Origin: an uncultured Planctomycetaceae bacterium
GTDB taxonomy: Bacteria; Planctomycetota; Planctomycetia; Pirellulales; UBA1268
Direction of reading: 5' to 3'
NCBI GenBank assembly: GCA_903917235.1
Contig: CAIWZS010000382.1
Location: 1 to 40,474, forward strand
DNA length: 40,474 nucleotides
In this document: positions 5,589 to 40,344 of the stretch, in pieces
How positions within the stretch are numbered: the first letter of the stretch is position 1
Layout: every line of letters begins with the position of its first letter
Made by a program: the position numbers and the translations under genes
Notes under the pieces: model-generated
What the model saw: only the letters and a program-made list of their open reading frames with translations
The model's database searches: none
Told to the model about the DNA's origin: nothing

Positions 5589-7151
5589 TCAGACGGGCAC
5601 GACCAGCTCCTCGGTCACCTGCCAGCGTTCGGCGAGATCGACGTCGAGGTGGCTCGTGAGGTCGATGTCGGCACCGGGCTGCCGTAGTTTCTCGACAGCC
5701 TTCGCCTCGATCTGCCGCACCCGCTCCCGGGTGACGTCGAAGATCGTCCCCACCTCCTCGAGCGTGTAGGCGTAGCCGTCCGCCAACCCGAACCTCAGGC
5801 GGATGATCTCGCGCTCGCGATAGGAGAGCGTATCGAGAGCCCGCGAGAGCGAGGCGCGGAGTGACTGGCGGTTGAGGTCCTGGAGGGGATCCTCCTCGCG
5901 GCGATCGCAGACGAATTCACCCACCGATCCGTCCTCGGTCTCGCCGAGGGGCTGATCGAGCGAGGCCGGCCGTCGCGACATCCGCCAGATGCACTCGGCC
6001 TCGTCCACCGCGAGGCCGGAACGCGCCGCCAGTTCCTCGACCGTCGCCTCCCGACCGTGCTGCTGGAGCAGGTCGCGGGCGGCATTCCGCATCTTGGTGA
6101 GCATGTCGACCATGTGCACCGGCATGCGGATCGTGCGACTCTGGTCTGCGATCGCGCGGGTGATGGCCTGGCGGATCCACCACGTCGCGTACGTCGAGAA
6201 CTTGAAGCCGCGGGCATGCTCGAACTTGTCGACGGCCCGCATGAGGCCGGAGTTGCCTTCCTGGATCAGGTCGAGGAACGACAGACCACGGTTCCGGTAC
6301 CGCTTCGCGATCGAGATCACCAGTCGCAGGTTGCCCTCCGCAAGATCGCGCTTCGCCGCGTCGTAACGCTGCTGGAGATCCTCGAGTCGGGCGAGCCGTC
6401 GCGCGAGCGTGCGGCGGCTCTCACGGACGCCGAGCAGGATGCGCCGCTGCTCGAGCGCCGCCGTGGCGGGATCGATGGTGCCGCCGACGCGGTCGCCGAG
6501 CGTGGCGAGCCGGTCGGCCTTGGCTCGCAGCTCCTTGAGGAGCGGATAGAGCCGCTGGATCCGCAGGTGCATCTCTTCGACGAGTCGCACCGACTTGTTG
6601 CGCTGCCGCACGAGACGCCGCCACGCCGCCCGACGCTCCTCGGGGGCCGCGGCCCGCGAGGTGGCGATCCGAAAGAGGCGCCGCTTCTCCTGCTCGAGGC
6701 GACGCAGCGTCACGAGATTCGGCTCGAGCCGACGCAGGATCCGCTTCTTCTCCCCCGTGTTGGTGACCGACACCTCGATGGTCCGGTCGAGACGCACCGT
6801 CCCCGCCTGCACCCGCTCGAGGAGCTGGAGCGCGCCGGCGAGCACGAAGTCGTTCGCGAGCAGCGTGCGGCGGAACTTGCGCCGCCAGTGCTCGATCCGC
6901 CGGGCGCTGTCCACCTCGGTCTGTCGCGAGAGGAGCGGCATGCCACCCATCTGGAGCAGGTAGAGCCGCACCGGGTCGTCGATCACCGCGAGCGGCCGGC
7001 GGGCGCGGGCGGGTTTCGGGGAGCCGGCTTTGCCCACCGGGCGCTCGCCGGCACGCACCCCCTTGCCCCGAGGCAGCGGGGCGACCGGTGCGCTGGCGAC
7101 CGATGGTGCGGCGATCGGGTGGAGGGGGATCGGGGGGGCGCGACGTTGCAT
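5589..7151 (-). CDS. rpoD: RNA polymerase sigma factor, RpoD/SigA family
   Basis: [76 protein letters not shown] (regions 2.1-2.4) and [49 protein letters not shown] (region 4). [22 protein letters not shown] near the N-terminus resembles region 1.2. Start at ATG 7151. Confidence 0.95.
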
Positions 7152-14890: not shown

Positions 14891-16291
14891 ATGGCCGTTC
14901 CTTCCCGACCCGCCGTCCCCCCGTGCCATCCCCGTGCTCGCCGTGCGGTGCGGCGGTCGTGGCGCGCCGCGACGATCGCCCTCTCTGCGGTACTGCCCAT
15001 GGCTGCCCACGCCGCCCCGCCTCTTCCGGCTCCGAACTACGACGAGTCGGCCGTGGGGGAGGTGGTCCTGCCGGACCCGCTCCGCGGTCCGGATGGAACG
15101 GTGGTCACGACCGCCGACGCCTGGCGCCGCGTGGCACGGCCGCATCAACTGGCACTCCTCGAGACACACGTCTACGGTCGTCGGCTCCCGCCGCGGCCTG
15201 TCACCGTGGCCGACGGCGGCGTCGAAGAGGTCGCGGTGTCGCTCGCCGGCGGACTCCCTGCCACGCGCGTGCAGGCCCGGCTGCGGCTCGGCGATGGCCC
15301 GAACGCCCGCCTCGTGGACGTGCTGCTGTACCTGCCCCGCGGTGCGACACGAGCCGCGTCCCCGGGCCCGGCCGGCGGAGGCCCAGGCCGTGTTCCGGTG
15401 TTTCTCGAGCTCAACTTCCGCGGCAACCATGCCCAGCACGGCGACCCCGGCATCCGCCTCTCGACATCCTGGATGCCGAAGGACGACGCCGCAGGCATCG
15501 TCGACCATCGGGCCACGGAAGCCTCGCGCGGCGTCAACGCCCGACGCTGGCCCGTCGAGGCGCTCGTCGGGCGCGGTTTCGGGATGGCGACGGCGTACTG
15601 TGGTGACATCTTCCCGGACCGGGCCGACGGCCGCCCCGACAGTGTGCTCGTGTCGCTCGGTCGGCCCGTGGATGGAGCGCTGCCGCCGGACGAGCCGGGG
15701 GCGATCGGCGCGTGGGCGTGGGGGTTGTCGCGGATCCTCGACTGGCTCGTCACGCTGCCGGAGGTCGATCCGGCGCGCGTCGCCGTGGTGGGGCATTCAC
15801 GGCTGGGCAAGACGGCCCTCTGGGCGGGTGCCTGCGACGAGCGTTTCGCGATGGTCGTCTCGAACAACTCGGGCTGCGGCGGTGCCGCCCTCTCGCGGCG
15901 GAACTTCGGGGAGACGGTCGCCGTGATCACCGAGCGGTTCCCACACTGGTTCTGTCCCGCGTTCGCCGGCTATGCGGGTCGGGAGCGCGAGCTTCCGTGC
16001 GACCAGCACACGCTCCTGGCGATGGCGGCCCCGCGTCCGCTGTATGTCTCGAGCGCGACCGAGGATCTCTGGGCGGATCCGCGGGGTGAGTTCCTCGCCG
16101 CGGTCGCCGCGAGTCCGGCGTGGAGGCTGTTCGGCCTCGAGGGACTCGATGCGGCCGTGCCACCGCGACCGGACGAGTCGATCGGGGATCGAGTGGGATA
16201 TCACACCCGCACCGGTGCGCACGACATCCTGCTCGAGGATTGGACCTTCTTCACCGACTTCGCCACGCGCACGATCCCGGCCGCGCGGTGA
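14891..16291 (+). CDS. Secreted glucuronoyl esterase-like alpha/beta hydrolase (CE15 family)
   Basis: N-terminal signal peptide; VFLELNFRGNHAQHGDPGIRLSTSWMP, MATAYCGDIFPD, AWAWGLSRILDWL, VDPARVAVVGHSRLGKTALWAGACDERFAMVVSNNSGCGGAALSRRNFGE, HWFCPAF. The GxSRxGK nucleophile elbow is typical of CE15. Confidence 0.85.
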   Translation: MAVPSRPAVPPCHPRARRAVRRSWRAATIALSAVLPMAAHAAPPLPAPNYDESAVGEVVLPDPLRGPDGTVVTTADAWRRVARPHQLALLETHVYGRRLPPRPVTVADGGVEEVAVSLAGGLPATRVQARLRLGDGPNARLVDVLLYLPRGATRAASPGPAGGGPGRVPVFLELNFRGNHAQHGDPGIRLSTSWMPKDDAAGIVDHRATEASRGVNARRWPVEALVGRGFGMATAYCGDIFPDRADGRPDSVLVSLGRPVDGALPPDEPGAIGAWAWGLSRILDWLVTLPEVDPARVAVVGHSRLGKTALWAGACDERFAMVVSNNSGCGGAALSRRNFGETVAVITERFPHWFCPAFAGYAGRERELPCDQHTLLAMAAPRPLYVSSATEDLWADPRGEFLAAVAASPAWRLFGLEGLDAAVPPRPDESIGDRVGYHTRTGAHDILLEDWTFFTDFATRTIPAAR

Positions 16292-26557: not shown

Positions 26558-28180
26558 ATGGCCGATCCGGCCGTCGCCGACGGGCCGGTGCATTCGAGCC
26601 CGCCTCCCCGCATGCCCACCGCCGCCTCCGCCAGCCCGCAGCAGACCGAGCGGGTGCTCGTCCTCGATTTCGGGTCGCAGTACGCCCAGCTCATCGCCCG
26701 CCGCGTGCGCGAGCAGAACGTCTACTGCGAGATCGTGCGGCACGACCTCGCCGCCGCCCGCATCCGCGAGCTCGCGCCGCGTGGCATCATCCTCTCCGGA
26801 GGCCCGGCGAGCGTGTACGAGACGGGTGCCCCGCGTTGCGACGCGGAGCTCTTCCGGCTCGGAATCCCGGTGCTGGGCATCTGCTACGGCATGCAGCTGG
26901 CCTGCGATGCGCTCGGCGGAAGCGTCCGCGGCGCGCCCTCGCGGGAGTATGGTCGCGCGGAGTGCGAGATCCTCGAGGCCGACACGCTCTTCGCGGGCGT
27001 CACCTCGCCCGCCGAGGTGTGGATGAGCCACGGCGACCGCGTCGACGCCGTGTCGGCGGGCTTCGTGCCGCTCGCCCGCACGCCGGCCTGCCCGCTCGCC
27101 GCCGTGCGTCACCGCGACCTGCCGGTGTTCGGTCTGCAGTTTCATCCGGAGGTGACCCACACGCCGGCCGGCGGGGCGATCCTCGCGAACTTCCTGCGCG
27201 GTGCCTGCGGCTGCTCGGGTGCGTGGCGGCTCGACGACTTCGCGCGGACGACGATCGACCGTCTGCGCGCGACGATCGGCGACGACCGTGTCATCTGCGG
27301 GCTCTCGGGCGGCGTGGACTCGGCCGTCGTCGCCGCACTTCTCTCTCGGGCGATCGGGGATCGCCTCTCCTGCATCCTGGTGGACAACGGCCTGCTGCGG
27401 CGACACGAGGCGACGGCCGTCATCGAGGAGTTCACCACCCACTTCCGGACCGACCTGCACGTGGTCCGGGCGGAGGACAGGTTTCTCGACGAGCTCGCCG
27501 GCGTCACCGAGCCACAGGAGAAGCGTCGCCGCATCGGGCGCGCGTTCGTGGAGTGCTTCACGGAGGAGGCGGCGAAGATCGCGGGTGCGCGATTCCTCGC
27601 CCAGGGCACGCTCTATCCCGACGTCATCGAGAGCGGTGCAGCGGCGGACGGTCCCGCAGCGACGATCAAGCTCCACCACAACGTCGGAGGCCTTCCGGAC
27701 GACCTGAAGTTCGAGCTGGTCGAGCCGCTCCGCGACCTGTTCAAGGACGAGGTGCGCACGCTCGGACTGCAGCTCGGACTGCCGGAGCGCATCGTCTGGC
27801 GGCATCCGTTCCCCGGACCGGGGCTCGCCGTCCGCTGCCTCGGCGAGGTCACGAAGGCACGGCTCGATCGCCTGCGTGACGCCGATGCGATCGTGCTCGA
27901 GGAGCTCGAGACCGCGGGACTCATGCGGAAGGTCGCTCAGGCGTTCGCCGTGCTGCTGCCGGTGCAGAGCGTCGGCGTGATGGGTGACGCGCGGACCTAC
28001 GACGACGTGCTCGCCGTCCGCGCGGTGGAGACGGAGGACTTCATGACGGCCGACTGGAGCCACCTCCCCCACGAGGTGCTCGCCCGCATGTCGACCCGCA
28101 TCATCAACGAGGTCCGCGGGATCAACCGCGTCGTCTACGACATCTCGTCGAAGCCGCCCGCGACGATCGAGTGGGAGTGA
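26558..28180 (+). CDS. guaA: GMP synthase (glutamine-hydrolysing)
   Basis: [150 protein letters not shown]. Confidence 0.98.
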
Positions 28181-28376
28181 CCGTCGGCTCCACGACCACT
28201 TCCGTGAGAATTGGATGAGGGTCGCCGGGCCGCTTGTGAGCCCGCGGGGGGGACCCTAGCCTGACGGTCGACCTGGGCCGATGACGGCGCGCCGTGCCGG
28301 CCGCGTCACACCCTTCCGTTTCGGGGCCGTCGGGCCCGCTCCATCCGATCCGCACCGAGCACAGGACGCAGCCGCC

Positions 28377-29972
28377 ATGGAATTCTTCGACGCGCTCTCG
28401 ACCCTCGGACCGGGCCAGGTGCTCCTCCTCATCACGGCGCTCGTGATCGCCTTCGGCTTCGAATGCGTCAACGGGTTCCACGACACCGCGAACGCGGTGG
28501 CGACGGTCATCTATACGAAGAGCCTCAAGCCGACCCCGGCCGTCGTCTGGTCCGGCCTCTGGAACTTCATCGGCGTGCATGCCGGTGGCATCGGCGTGGC
28601 CTTCAGCGTCGTCCACCTGCTGCCCGTCGACCTGCTCGTCAACATCAAGACGGGACGCGGCCTCGCGATGGTCCTGGCCCTCCTCCTCGCCGCCATCATC
28701 TGGAATTTCGCGACCTGGTACCGCGGCCTGCCGGCATCGAGCTCGCACGCGCTCATCGGGTCGATCATGGGCGTCGGGATGATGAACGCCTGGATGGAGC
28801 ACGGGTCGCTCTTCAAGGGCGTCAACTGGCACAAGGCGACGGAAGTGGCGATGGCGCTCCTGCTGTCGCCGCTCATCGGGTTCGGGCTCGCCGCGGGCCT
28901 GCTGCTCCTTGGGAAGCGACTCATCCCGTCGCAGAAGCTCTACGAGGCGCCGAGCGAGACCGAGCCGCCTCCCATGTGGATCCGCGCGATCCTCATCGGC
29001 ACCTGCACGGGTGTCAGCTTCGCGCACGGGTCGAACGACGGTCAGAAGGGGATGGGACTCATCATGCTCGTGCTCATCGGGATCGTGCCCGCGACGTACG
29101 CGCTCAACATGGGCACCTCGCAGGCGGACATCACGGCCGTCGTCGAGGCCGCGCGCGACCTGCACGACGAGCTGCAGGCGCCGGAGATCGCCGGGCTCAT
29201 GGATGCGCTCAAGCAGGAGTACATGGCGAGCACCCGCGTCGAGAAGCTGCGCCGCAGCGAGGCCCTGGCGGCGACGATCGAGCCCTACGGCAATTTCGAC
29301 GACGACGTGCACGGCTTTGAATTCCGCAGTCCGGGCCTCGCGAGCGACCTCATTGACCCGTACCCGCGGGCTGACGCCGTGCTCGCGACGCTCGACCCGC
29401 TGCCGATCGCGAAGGATTTGATGAGTGCGCTCGATGGCAAGACGAGCTTCGAGGATCTCGGCTCGGAGGAGCGGTGGCAGGTCAGGACGCACCTCGTCGA
29501 GCTCGGGGCGTCGGTGCGGACGCTCGTGCGCACGTTCGGCGACAAGATGGCCGAGGATCGCCGGAAGGTGCTGATGAGCCTCGCGGGCAAGCTGTCCAAG
29601 CCGGTGGAGTACGTGCCGGAGTGGGTGAAGATGGGCGTGGCACTCTGTCTCGGCCTGGGCACGATGGTCGGCTGGAAGCGGATCGTCGTCACCGTGGGCG
29701 AGAAGATCGGCAAGACGCACCTCACCTACGCGCAGGGTGCGTCGGCCGAGCTCGTCGCCGCCGCCACGATCGGCCTCGCCGATGGCTTCGGCATGCCGGT
29801 CAGCACGACCCACGTGCTCTCGAGCGGTGTGGCGGGGACGATGTGGGCCAACAAGTCGGGCATCCAGGCCGAAACGGTGCGGGACATCGCCCTCGCGTGG
29901 ATCCTGACGCTGCCGGCGGTGATCTTCCTCTCCGGACTCATTTACTGGATCGCCACGCTGTTCGTCGGGTGA
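28377..29972 (+). CDS. pit: Inorganic phosphate transporter, PiT family
   Basis: GFECVNGFHDTANAVATVIYTKSLKP, WYRGLPASSSHALIGSIMGVG, GTCTGVSFAHGSNDGQKGMGLIMLVLIGI, GFGMPVSTTHVLSSGVAGTMWA: both PiT signature halves. Confidence 0.96.
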   Translation: MEFFDALSTLGPGQVLLLITALVIAFGFECVNGFHDTANAVATVIYTKSLKPTPAVVWSGLWNFIGVHAGGIGVAFSVVHLLPVDLLVNIKTGRGLAMVLALLLAAIIWNFATWYRGLPASSSHALIGSIMGVGMMNAWMEHGSLFKGVNWHKATEVAMALLLSPLIGFGLAAGLLLLGKRLIPSQKLYEAPSETEPPPMWIRAILIGTCTGVSFAHGSNDGQKGMGLIMLVLIGIVPATYALNMGTSQADITAVVEAARDLHDELQAPEIAGLMDALKQEYMASTRVEKLRRSEALAATIEPYGNFDDDVHGFEFRSPGLASDLIDPYPRADAVLATLDPLPIAKDLMSALDGKTSFEDLGSEERWQVRTHLVELGASVRTLVRTFGDKMAEDRRKVLMSLAGKLSKPVEYVPEWVKMGVALCLGLGTMVGWKRIVVTVGEKIGKTHLTYAQGASAELVAAATIGLADGFGMPVSTTHVLSSGVAGTMWANKSGIQAETVRDIALAWILTLPAVIFLSGLIYWIATLFVG

Positions 29973-30180
29973 GGCGGCTCCCCGCCGGGGGCTCCGGTCA
30001 GCGAGGCCGCCGCGTCGGCAGTCTCTTCCCAGTTTGCCGGCGCGCACCACGTGGCACCCGTTGTGCAGTCTGCCCGACGGGACGTTTCGGCATGTCCGTT
30101 CCTTCCGGCGCACTCGGCTGACGATTCTCACGATCGGACCCCACCATGATGGCTGGGGGCGACGTACCGGGAACGACGAG

Positions 30181-31893
30181 ATGCACGGACGATCCGGTTG
30201 CACCGGTCGGATCGCCTCGATCGTGGTGATCATCCTCGTCGAGATGCTGTCCGGTCACGCTCTTGTCCGCGACGGGACGTGGCGGGGCAGCGCGTCCGGC
30301 GCCGAGCCGTTCGGCATCGCCAGTCCGTCGGCGTCGCTCGGGGACATCGCGCCGGGCGGGACGGACCCACCGGCGGATGACACGGCGCTCGACGAGCTTC
30401 CGCCGGACGAGTCGATGCCCGTCGACCGATCCGCGGCGACGGCCATCCCGGACCGGGCCGCGGCCGGGCCCACACCCGCCGACGAGGATCCACCGATCCA
30501 CGACGTCGTCAACGGTCTCCCGCTGACCGTCCATTGGCATCACGGCCTCGCGCTCGAATCGCCGTCACGGGACTTCGCCATCAAGGTGGGCGGCCGCGTG
30601 CAGATCGACACGTCGGCGTACACGGAGGGCGCAGGGCCGGCCGCGCCACCCGCCTTCGGCGGCTTGAACCCGCCGCTCAACGGCGCCACGAACGTTCGTC
30701 GGGCCCGCATCCGCGTCGAGGGACGGATGTACGAGGTCTATGACTGGGCGATGGAGTACGACTTCGCCAATCAGCTCGACGTGAACAACGAGGCCTTTCC
30801 CACCGAGCGGGACATCGGCCCGCTGCCGGCCATCACCGACGCCTGGGTGCAGATCCGCGAGCTCCCGATCCTCGGGATCGTGCGCATCGGCAACCAGAAG
30901 GACCCCTTCGGCTACGAGCACCTCACGAGCAGCCGCTGGCTCAACTTCATGGAGCGGTCGTTCACGATGGACGCCTTCGTGGGGCCGTTCAACAACGGCT
31001 TTCAGCCCGGCATCAAGATCCTGAACGCATCCGATGACGGCCGCGTCATCTGGCAGGTCGGCGAGTTCAAGAACACGAGCAACGTCTTCGGTGCGAGCGC
31101 CACCGACGGCGGCAGCCAGACCGTGGGACGGCTCGTGGTGCTGCCCGTGTTCGAGGGGGAAGGGGAGCGGCTGGTGCACCTCGGCGTGGCGGGCAGAACG
31201 ATGGGACTCAAGCTCCTGCAGACCGAATTCGATCCCGCGACCGGGCTGCCGACGGGGCCGGAAGTGCCCGCCGTCCGCTTCCGCAGTCGTGGCGACGTGC
31301 GGAACGGGCCGCCCGGCCCGGTCAATTCGATCTACGCGGATGCCGGGCTGCTCGAGGGCTCGTGGCAGAACATGATCGGCCTCGAGTTCGTCGGCAACGA
31401 CGGGCCGCTCTCCTGGCAGGCCGAATACATCGGCTCGTGGCTTTATGACGCGGTGACCACTGGCAACGACCCGATCAATGCCGGCCGCCAGCCGCCGGCG
31501 GGCACGAAGGTCGGCACGGTCTTCTACCAGGGCGGCTACGTCGAGGTGCTCTACTTCCTCACCGGTGAGACCCGCACCTACTCGCGGCTGGAAGGCGTCT
31601 TCGATCGTCCGATCCCGAGGAACACGTTCTACGTGCTGCGGGGCGCCCGCCGACTGCTTTCGAGTCCCGGGGCACAGGTGGGCGCCCGCTACAACTGCCT
31701 GTCGCTCAACGACGGCGAGGTGAACGGCGGCGTGCTCAACGCAGTCACGCTCGGGCTGAACTGGCTGTGGACCCCGAATGCCCGCGTCTACTTCAACTAC
31801 GACTTCACCTACCGCGACTTCGTCAACCTCGCCGGGTTCAACGGCAGCGGCGGCATCCACGCCTTCGGCACGCGCCTGGCCTTCGACTTCTGA
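30181..31893 (+). CDS. Porin, OprO/OprP family
   Basis: Signal peptide-like N-terminus; GLALESPSRDFAIKVGGRVQIDTSAY, RARIRVEGRMYEVYDWAMEYDF, RIGNQKDPFGYEHLTSSRWLNFMERSFTMDAF, ends with ...GGIHAFGTRLAFDF (C-terminal Phe of outer-membrane beta-barrels). Confidence 0.88.
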   Translation: MHGRSGCTGRIASIVVIILVEMLSGHALVRDGTWRGSASGAEPFGIASPSASLGDIAPGGTDPPADDTALDELPPDESMPVDRSAATAIPDRAAAGPTPADEDPPIHDVVNGLPLTVHWHHGLALESPSRDFAIKVGGRVQIDTSAYTEGAGPAAPPAFGGLNPPLNGATNVRRARIRVEGRMYEVYDWAMEYDFANQLDVNNEAFPTERDIGPLPAITDAWVQIRELPILGIVRIGNQKDPFGYEHLTSSRWLNFMERSFTMDAFVGPFNNGFQPGIKILNASDDGRVIWQVGEFKNTSNVFGASATDGGSQTVGRLVVLPVFEGEGERLVHLGVAGRTMGLKLLQTEFDPATGLPTGPEVPAVRFRSRGDVRNGPPGPVNSIYADAGLLEGSWQNMIGLEFVGNDGPLSWQAEYIGSWLYDAVTTGNDPINAGRQPPAGTKVGTVFYQGGYVEVLYFLTGETRTYSRLEGVFDRPIPRNTFYVLRGARRLLSSPGAQVGARYNCLSLNDGEVNGGVLNAVTLGLNWLWTPNARVYFNYDFTYRDFVNLAGFNGSGGIHAFGTRLAFDF

Positions 31894-31948
31894 AGGGCCG
31901 AGCTTCCGTCCCGTCCGAGATCTTGTACCGTCCGGACCGCCGCGACCG

Positions 31949-34900
31949 TCAGCGGATCGTGACGTTCGTCACGCCGGTGGGCAGCGTGGGATTCACGAAG
32001 AATTCCGCCGTGAAGGCTCCCGACGCGGAATCGAGAACGTGCTGGTCAATCGTCTTCAGTCCGAGGGAGCCGCCCGTCGCGTCGTACAGGTAGGCGAAGG
32101 CGGCGAAGAGGGCGCGACCCGTGTTGAAGAACTGGCCGGAGGCCGGCGGCGCGTTCTGTGAATAGGCCCCCGGCAGGGGCGAGAATGACTCGACCGACGA
32201 AGGATTGAGCGGGTTGGCCGGATCGAGCGTGGTCGTGCCGGGCAGCGTGTCGACGACGTACGAAACACGTCCTCCCGAATTCAGGAACTGCACCCCCAGA
32301 CGGCCCTTGAACGATTGGCCCTGCGAGCGTCCCGGCAGCGTGAGGATCGAGAAGGGGATACCCATGTCGATCACGATCGGGCCCGTCGCCGCCGGCGTGC
32401 CGTCGAACGTGAGCGTGCCCATGGCCGGCTGCCAATCGGGCGGACTCGTCGCACCCGGCGCGAGGCCGGTGGGGGCGAGACGCGTGTAGGCGAAGCCGCT
32501 CTGGGCCGCGTCGAGTCCGAGCGTGACCCCGTCCGGGGTGATGACGTAGCCGGCCCGCATCGAGCCGTCCCGCATCTCGTCGATGTTGAGGAAGGCGTTG
32601 TACGACTGGTTGAGCGCGGCGGTCGTGGGGAACGTGCCGAGGCCACTGCGGTCGAAGCCGACACCGAAGTTGGAGACGGGCGACAGGATCGACGCCCCGT
32701 CGCGGCGGTTGTCGGCGTACGACGCCCACCATCCCCCGGGGATCGTGACGGTGCCCAGCGGGCCGCCCGGCCGGGGCGCCGGCACCGGGATGATCGGCGC
32801 CGACGACCGCCGGCTGCCGTCGGTGATCGTCACGCTGCCGGTCGCGAACATCGTGCCGAACGTGGTGCTCGCCGCGACGCTGCCTGGGGGTGGCACGCTC
32901 GAGGCACCCACGGCCGAGACCACGAGCACGGGCACGGTCGCCACCGCAGGCCGTGCGACCGGCGTCGATGAGCCGGGCGGGGTGAACGTGGAATCGACGA
33001 ACGTGACCCGCTGCGTGGACCACGTCCCGAAGTAGAGGCGGTTGCTGCTGTTGAGGTAGACGTACCCGCGCGGCCCGTCGAGCACGATGTCGGGATCGAG
33101 TTGGAGGGCGTCGAAGTAGAGTCCGCGCGATCCCGTGTCGAGGTTCACCTCGAGCCGCCGCGCGCCGATCCGCATCGCGACCTTCGGATCGGCGGAGTCG
33201 GCACCGATGAAGTCAGGCGGCGAGGTATAGGGCACGAGGTACCGGCCCGTGTCGGCGACGTAGCCGTCGAGCGGGTTGCCTCCGGGGGCTGGAGGCAGGA
33301 CGCCGGCACCGAGCGAGACGTCGGTGAGCCCGTTGCGCACGATCGAGTTCGCCGTGAAGACGGTGCCGCTGAAGTCACCCGTGACGAGGTCGATTCCGTA
33401 GAAGCCGTTGTCGGCAAGAAGGTTGCCCCGGACGAGGAGCCCGGTCACGCCGGCCGGTGCCATCAGCCCTGCACGGGCGTTCGCACGGATGCGGTTGTCC
33501 GCGATGACCGTCCCGGAGAAGTCGCCCGGCGCCACCACGATGCCATGGGTGTTCGGGCCTCCCGAGACGAGCCCCCACGGATTCGCGCGGCCCCGCCGCC
33601 CGATCGTGTTGCGTGTGAGCGAGAGACCCCTCACGGAACCGGCCAGCTCGATCCCGAACGTGGCATTGGCCACGATCGTATTGCGGGCCAGCACCGTTCC
33701 CGTGAAGTCGCCCCCCGCGAAGCTCACGCCGCTGCCTACGTTGCCGCTGATCGTGAAGCCGGTGAGTGACGACCCACGTGAACGCCCGCTGAACGAGACG
33801 CCGCTGCCGACGAAGTTCCGCACGGCTCCCCCGCCGCGCATCGCGAGGACGGCCCCGTCGGCTACCGCGATGCCCGTCGCCGCCGCGGTGGACGCGGATC
33901 CGTCGAGGGTCACCGTCGCCCGCGCGGCCACCTCGGCCGGCGACGTGAATGCGAGGCCGGCCAACGGCGTGCGTCGCCCGATGGCTCCACCGAAGCGGAT
34001 CGCGCCCGCGGGCCGTTCAGCTCCGTCGCCGGAAAAGATCGACAGCGGAAACCCGCCGTCGAGGGTGCCGGCGAACGCCACGGGCGTTCCCTCCGTCTCC
34101 ACCCACGTCTGGCTCGCGAGTCGGGCCGGACCACCGACGGCGAAGCGGCCTCGACCCGTGACGAACGTGCCCGCCAGCGTCGTCCGATCGGCATACACCT
34201 GGTCGTGAGCCGTGGCGGCTCCGGCCACCGCCGTCGAACCGGCCGCGTCCGTCGTCACGCCCGCGAGCGGCACCGTCGGACCGATCGGACGGACGAACCT
34301 CGTGGCGGCACCGGACCGGACGGAAAGTCCCTCGCCGCCGGGCGTCGTGCCGTCGATCGCGCCGGTGAACGTGACCGCGCCGGCTGCCGCCCGCACGAGC
34401 GTGTCGGCGGCGAGCGTTGTCGCACCGGACACGGAGAACGCCCGGCCGTTCGTGCGGTAGGTCCCGCCGAGGACGGCGTTCTGGCCGTAGGACTGTGGAC
34501 CGAGCGTCGTGACCGAGCCGAGGACGACTTTCGCGGAGCCACCGTTGGGCCGCAGCCGCAGAAGGCCCGCCTCGACGTCGAACATGACGTCGAACATGTC
34601 GTAGAGGTTGAGCCCGGTGTTCACGTTGTTGCCGGTGGTCGCCTTCCCGCTGGACGACGAGTAGCCGACCTGGTTGACGGAGCCGTCGTTTCCCGCGATG
34701 AATGACCACGCGAGCGGCGGCGTGCCGGGAGCCGGTGGGAAGTCGACGGTCAGCCTCGTGCCGGGATCGACCGCGTCGCCACCGGAGGAAAACGGGTACG
34801 GCTCATCGGCCGGCCACTCGGGCAGCCGCACGCTCATCGACGGCGCTCCCGAATCGATGAGCGTCTGGAGTGGACCGAGCGTCCGGCTGCGATCCCCCAT

Positions 34901-36313
34901 CGAGAGCGTGTAGGTGGGGGCGAAGGCCAGCTGGTCGAACACCTGCCGACCCGATGTCGGGTAGGAGACGTCGTCGATCCGATCGAGCGTCACCGCGTAG
35001 GGGAACTGCGCCCGCAGCTCGGGCGTGAGCCCGACCGTGAGCCGAGCCGGTCCGCCGATCGGCCCGAGTTCGACCACGAAGCCACTCGAGAGGTTGCCAG
35101 GCAGCTGCAGCAGCACGTTCGTGACCGCGACACCCGGCTCGGTCCCGCGATTGATGCCGAACGACGCGCCAAAGTCACCGAAGAAACTCCCCTCGACGGG
35201 CGGCGTCGTGCCGAGGAAGTCGAAGGATGCGCCCGTGTTGACGTTGCCCCCCGACAGGATCGCACCGATCTGCACGGGCACGGCCGTGGAGACGGCCGCG
35301 GCACCACGGCCGAGCGTCACGACCGCGTCCACGGCGACCGCGTCGTAGAAGTTGCCCGACGTGTAGTTCGCGTCGACCGGCGGCCCGCTCGGATCGATCC
35401 CGGGCCACACGGCCGGGTCATAGCCCGCCATGAACCCCGTGCCGCCGGTGTCGAACTCGTACATCCGCACCGGCCCACCACCGATCGACACCTCGATTCC
35501 ATACTTGTCCTGGACGGTGCCGCCCGACGTCGTGTAGGGCAGATAGTGCAACGGGATCGAACGGCTGGCGGCCGACTGCGGCACCACGAGCGGATCGACC
35601 GCGCGCGTCGCGAGCGACCGCAGCGGCACGCGGCCACCCACCGGGCCGTCGAAGGTCGTCGCGACCGGGCTCGTGACCGAAAGCGACTGCCGACCCGGAC
35701 GGCTTCCGTCGACCGGACCGGTGAACGTCACGGCGCCGGCGCCGCCCGCGATCGACACGTCGGCCGTAAGCGTCGTCGGGCCTTCGATCCGCACATCAGT
35801 GGCCGCGCGCCACGTGCCCGCCAGCTCGAGACGGGACGCAGCCAGCGTGATGCGTCCGCCCGTCGAGACGATGTTCGTCGCGGTCAGAGTCGCCGCGGGC
35901 AGACGCATCTCGACATCGCCCGCGAAGGCTGCGGCCGCCCCGAACTCGACCCGCTCGACCGCCTCCACCAGCAGCGAGGCTCCGATGTCGCCCGCGGCGA
36001 CGACGAGGCGTTGCGACCCCGCGGTGCCGGTGACGATCACCCGCGAGATCGTCGCGTCCGAGACGCTGAACGCGCTCTCGAAGCGCGGGTTCGCAGCCAC
36101 CTCGACGAGGCCGGCCGCCTGACGCACGTAGGCCGTGTCGAGCCGCGCGGACGAGTCGACCGCGATGACAAGGTCCGATCCGACGACCGTGGGGCTGACG
36201 GCGAGCAGGGTCCGGCGCTCGAGCCGCTCGGGGGCCGCCACCCCGGGCCACGTGCCGCCGCCGCCGCGCACCCGCAGTGCGAGACGAAGCGTCGTCGTTC
36301 GATCTCGCTTCAT
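31949..36313 (-). CDS. Large modular surface protein: LEPR-XLL-like N-terminus, repeats, parallel beta-helix, two aspartic-protease-like modules
   Basis: 1454-aa ORF. N-term APERLERRTLLAVSPT; VRMYEFDTGGTGF...GPLQTLIDSGAPSMSVRLP; beta-helix ARNTIVANATFGIELAGSVRGLSLTRNTIG...VIADNRIRANARAGL...LLVRGNLLADNGFYGIDL; second LEVNLDTGSRGLYF...GPIVIDMGIPFSILTLP. Confidence 0.9.
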   Translation of the reverse strand: MKRDRTTTLRLALRVRGGGGTWPGVAAPERLERRTLLAVSPTVVGSDLVIAVDSSARLDTAYVRQAAGLVEVAANPRFESAFSVSDATISRVIVTGTAGSQRLVVAAGDIGASLLVEAVERVEFGAAAAFAGDVEMRLPAATLTATNIVSTGGRITLAASRLELAGTWRAATDVRIEGPTTLTADVSIAGGAGAVTFTGPVDGSRPGRQSLSVTSPVATTFDGPVGGRVPLRSLATRAVDPLVVPQSAASRSIPLHYLPYTTSGGTVQDKYGIEVSIGGGPVRMYEFDTGGTGFMAGYDPAVWPGIDPSGPPVDANYTSGNFYDAVAVDAVVTLGRGAAAVSTAVPVQIGAILSGGNVNTGASFDFLGTTPPVEGSFFGDFGASFGINRGTEPGVAVTNVLLQLPGNLSSGFVVELGPIGGPARLTVGLTPELRAQFPYAVTLDRIDDVSYPTSGRQVFDQLAFAPTYTLSMGDRSRTLGPLQTLIDSGAPSMSVRLPEWPADEPYPFSSGGDAVDPGTRLTVDFPPAPGTPPLAWSFIAGNDGSVNQVGYSSSSGKATTGNNVNTGLNLYDMFDVMFDVEAGLLRLRPNGGSAKVVLGSVTTLGPQSYGQNAVLGGTYRTNGRAFSVSGATTLAADTLVRAAAGAVTFTGAIDGTTPGGEGLSVRSGAATRFVRPIGPTVPLAGVTTDAAGSTAVAGAATAHDQVYADRTTLAGTFVTGRGRFAVGGPARLASQTWVETEGTPVAFAGTLDGGFPLSIFSGDGAERPAGAIRFGGAIGRRTPLAGLAFTSPAEVAARATVTLDGSASTAAATGIAVADGAVLAMRGGGAVRNFVGSGVSFSGRSRGSSLTGFTISGNVGSGVSFAGGDFTGTVLARNTIVANATFGIELAGSVRGLSLTRNTIGRRGRANPWGLVSGGPNTHGIVVAPGDFSGTVIADNRIRANARAGLMAPAGVTGLLVRGNLLADNGFYGIDLVTGDFSGTVFTANSIVRNGLTDVSLGAGVLPPAPGGNPLDGYVADTGRYLVPYTSPPDFIGADSADPKVAMRIGARRLEVNLDTGSRGLYFDALQLDPDIVLDGPRGYVYLNSSNRLYFGTWSTQRVTFVDSTFTPPGSSTPVARPAVATVPVLVVSAVGASSVPPPGSVAASTTFGTMFATGSVTITDGSRRSSAPIIPVPAPRPGGPLGTVTIPGGWWASYADNRRDGASILSPVSNFGVGFDRSGLGTFPTTAALNQSYNAFLNIDEMRDGSMRAGYVITPDGVTLGLDAAQSGFAYTRLAPTGLAPGATSPPDWQPAMGTLTFDGTPAATGPIVIDMGIPFSILTLPGRSQGQSFKGRLGVQFLNSGGRVSYVVDTLPGTTTLDPANPLNPSSVESFSPLPGAYSQNAPPASGQFFNTGRALFAAFAYLYDATGGSLGLKTIDQHVLDSASGAFTAEFFVNPTLPTGVTNVTIR

Positions 36314-36511
36314 GTCACCCGTCTGATTCGCCCGGGGCCCCCGTCTCGAGCGTATTCGAGATCGGTGCGTCGCCGGCTCACTTCACGTACCGGACGTGGT
36401 CTGACACGTCGTCGCCTGACCCATTCAAAACGTGCCGCAACGCATTGGAGCGATGCCGTGGAGGTTCGGGCAAGGGGCGGCAACAGGGAAGGATCGTGGG
36501 CCTCAGGAGCG

Positions 36512-36541
36512 ACCGACACCCCCCACCATGGAGGTGTCGGT
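36512..36541. promoter_or_regulatory. Hairpin in the divergent intergenic region upstream of the second porin
   Basis: ACCGACACC (36512-36520) - 12 nt - GGTGTCGGT (36533-36541), perfect 9-bp arms. Confidence 0.45.
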
Positions 36542-36739
36542 GGGCAAACTGGGCGGACGTGAACGAAAAAGTTGAGATTGCGGCCGTTTCTCATAAAAGC
36601 AGCAACGGGGGTGATTCGATGAACTGTTCCGTAAGGGTTGACCGTGACGGTCGCAGTGGTTGCGGCCGGCGGGTCGATCCTTCCGGTTACCGCGAGCCTG
36701 ACGCCGCGACCGGTGCTTCGCAACGGACGCCACCACACC

Positions 36740-38572
36740 ATGACTCCGCACCATCGCCTGGCCCGTTCCGTCGGCCCCCCCGGACGCCTCGTGGGCGTTG
36801 CCTCGTGGTGGCACACCCTCGCCCACCTCGCCCTCGTCGGCTGGCTCGGCCTCGTCTTCTGCCCGGCGCGATCCTGGGCCGAAGCCGATGATCCCCAGCC
36901 CGCTGCCCCCGAGACTGCCGCGAAGGCCGCGCGCACCGCGGCACCGGTACCGCGTGTGGAGTCGCCACCCCGGGTACCGCCCGTCCGCGTGGCCCAGCAG
37001 CCGACCGACGCCGAGCGGCTCTCGCAGGGTGAGTCGTCGCTCACCGACGACGCGCTCTCCGACTCCGCCGGCCCGATGGCACCCGAGGGCCGGGAACTCG
37101 GCGCGGAGGGGGTGGAGAACCTCGGAGAGACCGAGGATGAGCAGCTCTCGCAGGGCGAGTCGTCGCTCACCGACGACGCGCTCACGGTGGGTGCCGACGT
37201 GAAGATGCTGCCGGAGTGGAACAACGGCCTCGAACTCTTCTCCACCAACCGCGAGTTTCGCATCCACATCGGTGGCCGGCTCCAGTACGACACGACGGCG
37301 TTCACGGCCGGCGACGGACCCAATCGCAACTTCAACGACGGCGGCCTCGACCCGAGGCTCGCCGGCGGCACCAACCCCCGCCGCGGCCGCCTCCGGGTGG
37401 ACGGCCAGATGTACGAGAACTACGAGTTCTTGAACGAGTGGGAGTTCGTGCAAGAAAGCTTCCTCTTCACGAACCAGCAGAACATCTCGGACGTCGCCGA
37501 CGGCCCGCTGCCCGCGCCGACCGAGGTCTGGCTCGGCATCTCGAAGCTGCCGTGGATCGGCAACGTCCGCATCGGCAACCAGAACACGCTCACCGGCCTC
37601 GAGCACATCACGAGCGACCGCTTCACGAATTTCATGGAGCGTTCGTACCTGGCCGACGCCTTCACGATGCCGTTCAACAACGCCTACTCCCCCGGCATCC
37701 TCATCTTCAACAACGCGCTCGAGAACGACCGCATGTGGTGGGGCATCGGGGCCTACAAGAACAACTACGACATCTACGGCTTCTCCAACACGGCGGCGGC
37801 CAATTCACTCCAGGGACGCGTGACGGGCCTGCTCATCGACGAGCCGGAACTCAACCGCTGGATGCACGTCGGCTTCTGCACCACGTACAACCAGCAGGCC
37901 AATCCCATCCTGCAGAAGAACTCCTCGGGGGCCGTGACCCAGCAGGGCGGCCTGCGGTACCGCGTCCGCGGCAACCTGCGGAACGGCCCGCCTGGTTCCT
38001 TCAACTCGATCTACGCCGACACCGGCATCCTCAACGGCAGCTACTTCACGCTCATGACGGCCGAGTACGCCGCGAACTTCGGCCCGCTCTCGATGCAGGC
38101 GGAGTGGACCTGCCACGTCGTGCCCAAGGTGCGGACGGCCCTCTCGACCAACGGCACATATGGCCAGCAGCCGGTGAACACCGTGATCGACAACCTCTTT
38201 TACCAGGGTGCCTACTGCGAGGTGATGTACGCCCTCACCGGCGAGGGACGAGCCTACAACAAGCGGCTCGCCATCCTCGACCGCTACGTGCCCCGCAGCA
38301 ACTTCTATCTCACCGAGGGGCGTCGAGGCTGGATCTCGAGCCCGGGTGCCTGGCAGATCGGGGCCCGCTACGACTGGGTGAATCTCAATGACAAGGGGCT
38401 CAACGGCGGCATGCTCAACGGCGTCACGCTCGGCCTCAACTGGATCTTGAACCCGAACGTCCGGGCCTACTTCAACTACGACTTCTGCTACCGCGACTTC
38501 GTGAACATGAACAACCAGAACGGCAGCGGCGGCATCAACGGCTTCGGCGCCCGGATGGCGATGGACTTCTGA
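36740..38572 (+). CDS. Porin, OprO/OprP family (paralogue of 30181-31893)
   Basis: Signal peptide from MTPHHRLARS...; GLELFSTNREFRIHIGGRLQYDTTAF, RIGNQNTLTGLEHITSDRFTNFMERSYLADAF, GNLRNGPPGSFNSIYADTGILNGSYF, C-term GGINGFGARMAMDF. Confidence 0.9.
   Translation: MTPHHRLARSVGPPGRLVGVASWWHTLAHLALVGWLGLVFCPARSWAEADDPQPAAPETAAKAARTAAPVPRVESPPRVPPVRVAQQPTDAERLSQGESSLTDDALSDSAGPMAPEGRELGAEGVENLGETEDEQLSQGESSLTDDALTVGADVKMLPEWNNGLELFSTNREFRIHIGGRLQYDTTAFTAGDGPNRNFNDGGLDPRLAGGTNPRRGRLRVDGQMYENYEFLNEWEFVQESFLFTNQQNISDVADGPLPAPTEVWLGISKLPWIGNVRIGNQNTLTGLEHITSDRFTNFMERSYLADAFTMPFNNAYSPGILIFNNALENDRMWWGIGAYKNNYDIYGFSNTAAANSLQGRVTGLLIDEPELNRWMHVGFCTTYNQQANPILQKNSSGAVTQQGGLRYRVRGNLRNGPPGSFNSIYADTGILNGSYFTLMTAEYAANFGPLSMQAEWTCHVVPKVRTALSTNGTYGQQPVNTVIDNLFYQGAYCEVMYALTGEGRAYNKRLAILDRYVPRSNFYLTEGRRGWISSPGAWQIGARYDWVNLNDKGLNGGMLNGVTLGLNWILNPNVRAYFNYDFCYRDFVNMNNQNGSGGINGFGARMAMDF
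37019..37186 (+). repeat. Near-identical ~40-bp direct repeat in the porin N-terminal linker, 126-bp period
   Basis: CTCTCGCAGGG(T/C)GAGTCGTCGCTCACCGACGACGCGCTC at 37019 and 37145, encoding LSQGESSLTDDAL twice. Confidence 0.88.
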
Positions 38573-38659
38573 AACGGCCTCCCGGCGACCATGTCACACA
38601 CTCACGAACCCCACGCCACCGAGACGATGATCCTCGGAACGTTCATCGGAGACTGCACC

Positions 38660-39514
38660 ATGCTCAGCAACCGAACCCGCATACCGACGACGCCGCGTAC
38701 GACACGCACCGCCCTCCGGTTCGCCCGGCTCACCCGGCTTGTCCGGCTCACCCTGATCGCCTCCGTCGCCGTGACGGGCGAGCGGGCCATCTCCCAGGAC
38801 GTCCTCCTCGACCTGCCGGCACCACGGAGCGTGCCGGTGAAGCCCCTCACCGATCCTCCCGTACCGCCGGAGCCGTTGACGCCCCCGCCCGCGACGGACG
38901 CCGTTTCCGAAGCCGCGCCCGCCACGACGGACGCGGAGATGCTCACCGACGACGAGGCCGCACCGTCGGCCGGTCCGGCGAAGGTGCAAACGACCAGAAC
39001 CGACAGGACGACGGACAAGGCCAGGAATGACACGGCCACGAATGACAAGACCGGGAAGGATGCCGCCAAGACCGATCGGGCGAAGGGTGACGCCAAGAGC
39101 GACAAAAAAGAGGGGAAGAAAAAAGAGGAGACGAACGACTGCTGCGGACGGCCCGGCATGATTCCCGTCTGCCGCTGCGTGCCCGTCACGAAGAAGAAGA
39201 GCCACACGGAATATGAGACGAAGTGCGAGCTCGTGTGCGTGCCCGGCTGTGGATTGCTCCACGGCCACTGTCTCGGCGGGCACGGCGCCGGGCATGCACC
39301 CGGCTGCTGCGACGACGGCTGCCCGTCATGCGCCGATGTCCGCATCCGGCAGCGAAAAACGCTCCAGAAACGCGTGACTGAGAAGGAATACGACTCCTAC
39401 GAGTTCAAGATCGAATGGGTGCCGGCCCGCTGTGCCTTCGGCGGATGCACCGCGTGCGGGGATGGCCGCCACGGCCACGGCGGCTTCTTCGACTGGCTCC
39501 TGTCCCATGAATAG
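38660..39514 (+). CDS. Secreted Cys/His-rich protein with a Lys/Asp/Thr-rich linker
   Basis: Hydrophobic N-terminus; low-complexity DRTTDKARNDTATNDKTGKDAAKTDRAKGDAKSDKKEGKKKEE; C-terminal CCGRPGMIPVCRCVPVTKKK...KCELVCVPGCGLLHGHCLGGHGAGHAPGCCDDGCPSCADVRIRQRKTLQKRVTEKEYDSYEFKIEWVPARC. Start 38660 or 38591. Confidence 0.82.
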   Translation: MLSNRTRIPTTPRTTRTALRFARLTRLVRLTLIASVAVTGERAISQDVLLDLPAPRSVPVKPLTDPPVPPEPLTPPPATDAVSEAAPATTDAEMLTDDEAAPSAGPAKVQTTRTDRTTDKARNDTATNDKTGKDAAKTDRAKGDAKSDKKEGKKKEETNDCCGRPGMIPVCRCVPVTKKKSHTEYETKCELVCVPGCGLLHGHCLGGHGAGHAPGCCDDGCPSCADVRIRQRKTLQKRVTEKEYDSYEFKIEWVPARCAFGGCTACGDGRHGHGGFFDWLLSHE

Positions 39515-39546
39515 ACACCGGCCTGCGGCGTGCCCATGATCAGGGC

Positions 39547-40344
39547 ATGGGCCAGGGCATGATCGACCGCGTCGACGTCGCCATCATCTTCGCGCTCGAA
39601 CTCGAGGCGGCGCCCCTTCGCGACCGCCTGGAGGATGCGGTGAGGCTGCAGGCACGGGACACCGCGGTGACGACGGGGCGGCTCGGTGACCGCACGGTGG
39701 CGATCGCGGTCGCCGGCATGGGGATGGTGGCGGCACGGGCGACGCGGCAGGTGATCGACGGGCACCGGCCCGGGTCGGTGATCGCCGCCGGGCTCTGCGG
39801 CGGACTCTCCCCCGACCTCGACCGCGGCGCCCTCGTCGTCGCCGACCGGGTCGCCCACGTCGCAGCGGCACGGCCGCCAGCCCCGGCCGGCAACGGCGGG
39901 GAGATGATTGACCTGCGTTCCGCAGGCCCCGTCGCGCTCACCGCTCCCGATGCATCGGCGCTCGAGCGACTGTCGGGCCGCGTCTGGCGGGGGCTGGTCG
40001 TGACGGCGGACGCGGTGGTCGCGACGCCGGACGCGAAACGCCGACTCGCGGACGAGACCGGAGCGGTGTGCGTCGACATGGAATCGTGGTGGATCGTCGA
40101 CGAGGCGATCCGCGCCGGGCGGCCTGCCGGCGTGGTGCGGGCCGTGAGTGACACCGTCGCCGAGGCGATTCCCGCGGACATCGCCCGGCTGGCGGGCATG
40201 CCGCACGCGATGAGGCGGGTCGGCGCGGCAATGCGGCTCCTGTGGCGTCGCCCCGGGGCGATCGTCGAACTCGCCGAACTCCGCGACCAGGCGCACCGAG
40301 TCGCGGACGGCCTGGCCGTCCGCCTGGTGGAACTCCTCGCCTGA
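39547..40344 (+). CDS. Nucleoside phosphorylase/nucleosidase-family protein (MTA/SAH nucleosidase-like or HpnG-like)
   Basis: VDVAIIFALELEAAPLRDRL, VAIAVAGMGMVAARATRQVIDGHRPGSVIAAGLCGGLSPDLDRGALVVADRV, AVCVDMESWWIVDEA: PNP_UDP superfamily motifs including the DMES catalytic segment. Confidence 0.85.
   Translation: MGQGMIDRVDVAIIFALELEAAPLRDRLEDAVRLQARDTAVTTGRLGDRTVAIAVAGMGMVAARATRQVIDGHRPGSVIAAGLCGGLSPDLDRGALVVADRVAHVAAARPPAPAGNGGEMIDLRSAGPVALTAPDASALERLSGRVWRGLVVTADAVVATPDAKRRLADETGAVCVDMESWWIVDEAIRAGRPAGVVRAVSDTVAEAIPADIARLAGMPHAMRRVGAAMRLLWRRPGAIVELAELRDQAHRVADGLAVRLVELLA

Follow-up and report, generated by a model that had tools for sequence, protein, structure and literature searches.

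A pepsin-fold aspartic protease module in a planctomycete repeat/beta-helix protein of a family akin to mycobacterial PecA

Pepsin-like proteases are rare in bacteria. The bacterial pepsins described first were predicted to be cytoplasmic (PMC2761423), and PecA of mycobacteria is an exception on the cell surface (PMC6819658). A contig of 40,474 nucleotides from an uncultured Planctomycetaceae bacterium (CAIWZS010000382.1 of assembly GCA_903917235.1, the whole of which is called the window here) carries an open reading frame on the minus strand (31949-36313) for a protein of 1454 amino acids, and a preliminary description made from the sequence saw in it a bilobal pepsin-like protease embedded in a surface protein. 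Is this module really a pepsin, of which kind, and what may it do there? Our analysis makes it likely that the gene encodes a repeat/beta-helix surface protein with a probably active, neutral-pH pepsin-like protease (module 1) and a divergent or pseudo-protease module (module 2). The protein belongs to an unrecorded multi-phylum family of bacterial pepsin relatives, which is akin to PecA and absent from the family libraries searched. The literature search brought up no publication on a planctomycete protein of this kind.

Predicted fold and active site of module 1

Module 1 comprises residues 250-602 (34508..35566; this and all other features of the protein are on the minus strand) and was delimited by profile match, AlphaFold2 model and Foldseek search. 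The model of residues 248-609, built from an alignment of 20 sequences (A1), had a predicted local distance difference test score (pLDDT) of 89.7 and a predicted template modelling score of 0.89. In the PDB, Foldseek found 523 chains at E <= 0.001, and the 50 matches listed were all pepsin-type aspartic proteases, among them mucorpepsin, plasmepsins, chymosin, BACE and penicillopepsin, aligned over both lobes. The best target-normalised template modelling score among the listed matches was 0.68, for the PE_PGRS16 domain of M. tuberculosis (4EHC). The root-mean-square deviation over the whole length was 5.5-7.4 Å, which suggests that the model differs in its loops or in the angle between the lobes. 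Thus, the two-lobed all-beta fold of clan AA, which had been postulated from short motifs, was borne out by the predicted model and the fold search, and the lack of such a fold, named beforehand as the outcome that would speak against it, was not encountered. Superposition over both lobes implies that the two aspartates of the model would oppose each other across one water.

The predicted catalytic residues are D288 in FDTGG (35450..35452, codon 35452-35450) and D487 in IDSGA (34853..34855, codon 34855-34853), at the codons first proposed; the earlier count of 199 residues between them is to be corrected to 198, as they are 199 positions apart. Conservation was assessed over 31 distinct homologues of the domain, which come from Planctomycetota, Actinomycetota, Pseudomonadota and Verrucomicrobiota. 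Both aspartates are invariant (30/30 for D288, 31/31 for D487), as is the glycine of both DxG motifs, and Ser or Thr follows D288 in 29 of 30 domains and D487 in all 31. One homologue (L055; L and G numbers are our handles for loci and genomes) reads DAG. This conservation across four phyla indicates that the DTGG/DSGA pair is more than a chance coincidence of short motifs. The GDFGAS segment, noted earlier as lying about midway, starts at residue 379 between the two aspartates and opens the N-lobe psi-loop segment GDFGASFGINRG (residues 379-390, 35144..35179); two phenylalanines stand just before it, giving FFG in agreement with the hydrophobic-hydrophobic-Gly motif, and G379 and G382 are found in 31/31 domains. 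Y317 in YTSGN (35363..35365) is a candidate flap tyrosine placed there from sequence only: its YxSG pattern is compatible with YGTG of pepsin, and Tyr or Phe occupies the position in 30/30.

The A1-type pattern of hydrophobic-hydrophobic-Asp-(Ser/Thr)-Gly-(Ser/Thr) is kept in its Asp, Ser/Thr and Gly at both sites and departs at the last position, which is Gly at site 1 and Ala at site 2. Ala at this position is also found in renin and in bacterial pepsins (PMC2761423). The C-lobe psi-loop VNTGLNLYDMFDVMFDVEAGLLRL (residues 564-587, 34553..34624) aligns by eye without gaps with the pepsin segment, whose sequence was confirmed against the PDB, and in this alignment Ala490 and Leu568 fall on Thr218 and Asp303 of pepsin. 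Ala218 has been tied to neutral-pH activity in renin and the protease of human immunodeficiency virus (HIV), most bacterial pepsins have it, and those of Shewanella and Colwellia have Leu303 besides (PMC2761423). Therefore, a pH optimum near neutral is predicted for module 1.

Relation to PecA and distribution of the family

No Pfam or NCBIfam model reaches its threshold for module 1, PF00026 included. The only sensible Pfam match was PE-PGRS_C (PF20729) with 11.8 bits and E=0.15, under the cut-off of 33 bits. Direct sequence searches of the PDB with the whole protein or with the profiles of modules 1 and 2 gave nothing relevant, and so the family link rests on the fold and on intermediate sequences. 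The module 1 profile found, at E about 1e-16 and with both aspartates aligned, two secreted-type proteins of 364-369 amino acids (L066, L067) from the bacterial order to which Acidisoma belongs. L066 in turn links to PF20729 (6.9e-16) and to the PecA model NF038019 (3.7e-11, under the PecA cut-off), and mycobacterial PF20729 sequences match 4EHC at 4.4e-75. Moreover, profile-profile alignment of A1 with A3 (hhalign) aligned both motifs at E=9e-4. Homology of module 1 to PE-PGRS_C is thus established through intermediates, with both aspartates aligned and an NTG in the C-lobe psi-loop that is common to module 1, module 2 and PE-PGRS_C and does not vary among the sequences of the last two. Of the proposed assignment to A1-type pepsins, then, the fold stands; the nearest curated family is the bacterial PE-PGRS_C/PecA rather than the eukaryotic PF00026, and neither is matched at cut-off. 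These results suggest an extension of PE-PGRS_C, or a clan mate for it.

The C-terminal domain of PecA (PE_PGRS35) and PE_PGRS16 (PF20729, NF038019, 4EHC) resembles module 1 in the bilobal fold, the DTG/DSG dyad and the NTG, and is likewise borne on exported repeat-rich surface proteins. On the other hand, module 1 falls under the cut-off of both models, has Gly at the fourth motif position and spans about 350 residues compared with 265. It is internal in repeats, whereas that of PecA is C-terminal; the window protein adds a second module, and Pfam and NCBIfam scans found no PE domain in it, unlike in PecA. Shewasins and other bacterial A1 pepsins (PF00026) are also bilobal, and the Shewanella and Colwellia enzymes share Ala at 218, Leu at 303 and the prediction of neutral-pH activity. 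However, shewasins have no signal peptides and should be cytoplasmic by prediction (PMC2761423), while the window protein is of surface type and has no PF00026 match. Eukaryotic pepsins (MEROPS A1) share the fold, the dyad, the N-lobe psi motif, the ungapped C-lobe psi-loop and perhaps the flap tyrosine, but identity in structural alignments is 11-17%, and module 1 differs in the missing PF00026 match and the C-lobe NTG.

A scan of a genome collection in which each of 85,462 species is represented once gave 19 loci. They comprise a planctomycete at 95% identity, a planctomycete metagenome-assembled genome (MAG) labelled Kuenenia at 55%, many environmental mycobacteria and actinobacterial MAGs at 46-52%, two loci of Rhodospirillales/Acetobacterales type at 31-33% and one of Verrucomicrobiota at 28%. 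The name under which the Kuenenia-labelled MAG (L018, genome G029) was deposited, Candidatus Kuenenia stuttgartiensis, looks wrong, since this MAG and the window genome belong to one family. Nearly the full length of the window protein (residues 31/47-1453) is 47-49% identical to mycobacterial and planctomycete homologues. The architecture is the same in long mycobacterial beta-helix proteins of an unnamed family (L019, L023, L024 and others), with 47-48% identity over about 1450 residues for L019 and L023, and both modules are present in at least five loci of environmental mycobacteria. These proteins differ in their N-terminus, in extra C-terminal repeats and often in two tandem copies; in L020, L023, L024 and L025 (mycobacterial/actinobacterial) the protease module is present twice, at a spacing of about 5 kb, in what look like tandem genes.

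Occurrence in environmental mycobacteria is patchy. Module 1 was found in 9/149 genomes sampled in the genus to which M. litorale F4 belongs; the order of Acidisoma had it in 5/150. In M. litorale F4 itself (L031, near 7000), the frame of module 1 stops at 7002 and similarity resumes from 6999 in another frame, which suggests a frameshift or sequencing error. Among 60 relatives, with the window genome counted, three had module 1 and two further matches were to the repeats only. Across the phylum, the window's own genome was the only one of 393 with module 1, and only three planctomycete genomes with the protein were found in all. Of 248 planctomycete genomes searched, none had PF20729, and the only one with PF00026 was a MAG with some contamination. 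No match to module 1 was present among 72,556 plasmids.

In the tree, whose deeper joins are unreliable because of long branches, the mycobacterial/actinobacterial sequences group together in a single clade (100/100) that does not include those of the planctomycetes. Transfer between the two phyla is likely; direct transfer from mycobacteria is not supported, since the planctomycete sequences lie outside their clade, and the direction may be either way. The family extends the surface class of bacterial pepsins past mycobacterial PE proteins to Planctomycetota, Pseudomonadota and Verrucomicrobiota, and its stand-alone and intermediate members should help in tracing the spread of the two-lobed fold. 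Several members are built differently. Three proteins of Pseudomonadota (L033, L034, L070) unite in one chain an extended repeat stalk (with AIDA repeats in L034), the same pepsin-like protease domain as in module 1 and then a Hint-type domain of self-processing type, which was called by Pfam (Hint_2) in L034 and by eye in L033 and L070. Short mycobacterial variants of 547-674 amino acids (L056, L057, L058, L059, L064) carry the protease domain C-terminally and have no beta-helix. The stand-alone member from Verrucomicrobiota (L035:5908-7188) has a signal-like stretch at its N-terminus and, at its C-terminus, a weak PEP-CTERM sorting motif.

A second module and the surrounding protein

The description of a single protease module held for module 1 and not for the count, because a second, divergent pepsin-related module occupies residues 1023-1453 (31955..33247), so that two pepsin-derived modules are found in a single chain. 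Module 2 was recognised by alignments A2 and A4, by a profile search over the whole window genome and its relatives, and by a link to PF20729. In the window genome, profile A4 had just two matches, module 2 itself (8.5e-208) and, in module 1, the C-lobe (6.8e-5), and hhalign of the two modules gave E=1.1e-7; by these sequence comparisons they are paralogous. The module 2 profile also found, at E about 1e-19, two stand-alone mycobacterial putative lipoproteins with DTG/DTG motifs (L045:1393-2373 and L047:1204-2367), which may be single-domain proteases and score just above the PF20729 cut-off (33.3 and 34.3 versus 33 bits). D1059 in LDTGSRG (33137..33139) is invariant, being found in all eight sequences of module 2 and in both stand-alone relatives, and so is D1316 (32366..32368), with 10/10. 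The residue after D1316, usually Ser or Thr, is Met in module 2 (IDMG), Thr in L045/L047 and Ile in L050. With D-Met-G as its second motif, catalysis by module 2 is doubtful. The module ends with an NTG...YDA..G..GL segment. Its AlphaFold2 model was poor, and therefore its fold rests on homology only. Single-lobe retropepsin matches of this model (best E 7.7e-3) were not taken as proof.

A right-handed beta-helix lies at residues 837-989 (33347..33805; PF13229, Beta_helix, E=5.3e-10), the sole Pfam match of the whole protein; NCBIfam gave none. In related genomes, these repeats are also found in the absence of the protease. Module 1 is thus set in a repeat/beta-helix protein, as first described. 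Near the N-terminus, residues 28-38 (36200..36232) read PERLERRTLLA, which we take to resemble the planctomycete N-terminal motif of LEPRxLL type and which had no match in the NCBIfam scan. Export may be inferred from this N-terminus together with the repeat/beta-helix build.

Possible function, alternative explanations and the locus

PecA cleaves itself and other proteins of the mycobacterial surface, for which its first active-site aspartate is required (PMC6819658). The product would be an exported, repeat-rich beta-helix surface protein displaying two modules of pepsin (clan AA) ancestry, and, with PecA as a model, its job would most likely be proteolytic processing of its own chain or of neighbouring surface proteins. 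In module 1, the catalytic water would be held by D288 and D487 where the two lobes meet, the flap would contain Y317, and the optimum would be near neutral as in renin, HIV protease and shewasins; catalysis, pH and substrates are what we infer for it. Module 2, as a diverged copy (DTGS/DMG), may be weakly active or serve as a non-catalytic binding or regulatory module. We put forward only tentatively a one-chain processing machine, in which an active neutral-pH module 1 is joined by a repeat/beta-helix stalk to a DMG pseudo-protease that controls or presents the substrate, the cassette being swapped between planctomycetes and mycobacteria.

Several points weigh against an active, surface-borne protease with two pepsin modules. 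The first motif has Gly in place of Ser/Thr at its fourth position, the C-lobe psi motif is NTG instead of hydrophobic-hydrophobic-Gly, the pLDDT of the module 2 model is 41, no recognised export signal model matched the putatively surface-located protein, and the solved relative PE_PGRS16 showed no proteolysis in one study (PMC6819658). Together with the DAG of L055, the DTGG motif and the inactive PE_PGRS16 would fit a pepsin fold without catalysis, having a binding or structural role like the plant xylanase inhibitors of that fold. We regard this as unlikely, as both aspartates and the following Thr/Ser are kept nearly without exception in four phyla, while known inactive A1 relatives do not conserve the active-site Asp (PMC2761423). 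Low ratios of nonsynonymous to synonymous substitution also speak against it: compared with the 95%-identical planctomycete relative, they are 0.13 for module 1, 0.14 for module 2, 0.32 for the N-terminal region and 0.19 for the repeats. Amino-acid identity to this relative is highest in module 1 (96%), followed by module 2 (92%) and by the N-terminal and repeat regions (88-89%); module 1 is under purifying selection, with stronger amino-acid constraint than the repeat regions.

That module 1 is a beta-rich adhesin domain with DTG/DSG by chance would agree with all Pfam and NCBIfam models staying under threshold, but it is in practice refuted by the fold search, with its high-confidence model and pepsin-only listed matches, and the sequence chain to PE-PGRS_C also speaks against it. 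Pepsins being mostly eukaryotic, recent acquisition of a eukaryotic gene might be imagined; the missing PF00026 match, the bacterial nearest sequences and the NTG in common with PE-PGRS_C make it highly improbable. Similarly, the mycobacteria that follow two planctomycete MAGs as the nearest named relatives could hint at a contaminated or chimeric contig with a mycobacterial gene. Such an origin deserves hardly any weight: a second member of the genus has the gene at 95% identity, the planctomycete sequences branch outside the mycobacterial clade, and contamination was rejected on account of synteny with same-genus genomes. The protease gene stands between two phosphate-selective porin genes with PHO4, GuaA, kinase and IlvD genes nearby, and three genomes of the same genus (G008, G013, G014) have the same order (IlvD where covered, kinase, GuaA, porin, PNP) but lack, between porin 1 and PNP, the protease gene, the second porin and a gene for a Cys-rich protein (38591-39514). 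Therefore, the window is native, and the protease gene is a gain by this lineage or was lost elsewhere.

The PHO4 transporter and the two porins flank the protease gene within 28281-40344 of the window. Two open reading frames of the window, 28122-30233 and 30565-31860, both on the minus strand, were discarded as antisense to the PHO4 and porin genes. Finally, a glucuronyl esterase-like gene (GCE_fung) is located at 14891-16291 of the window.

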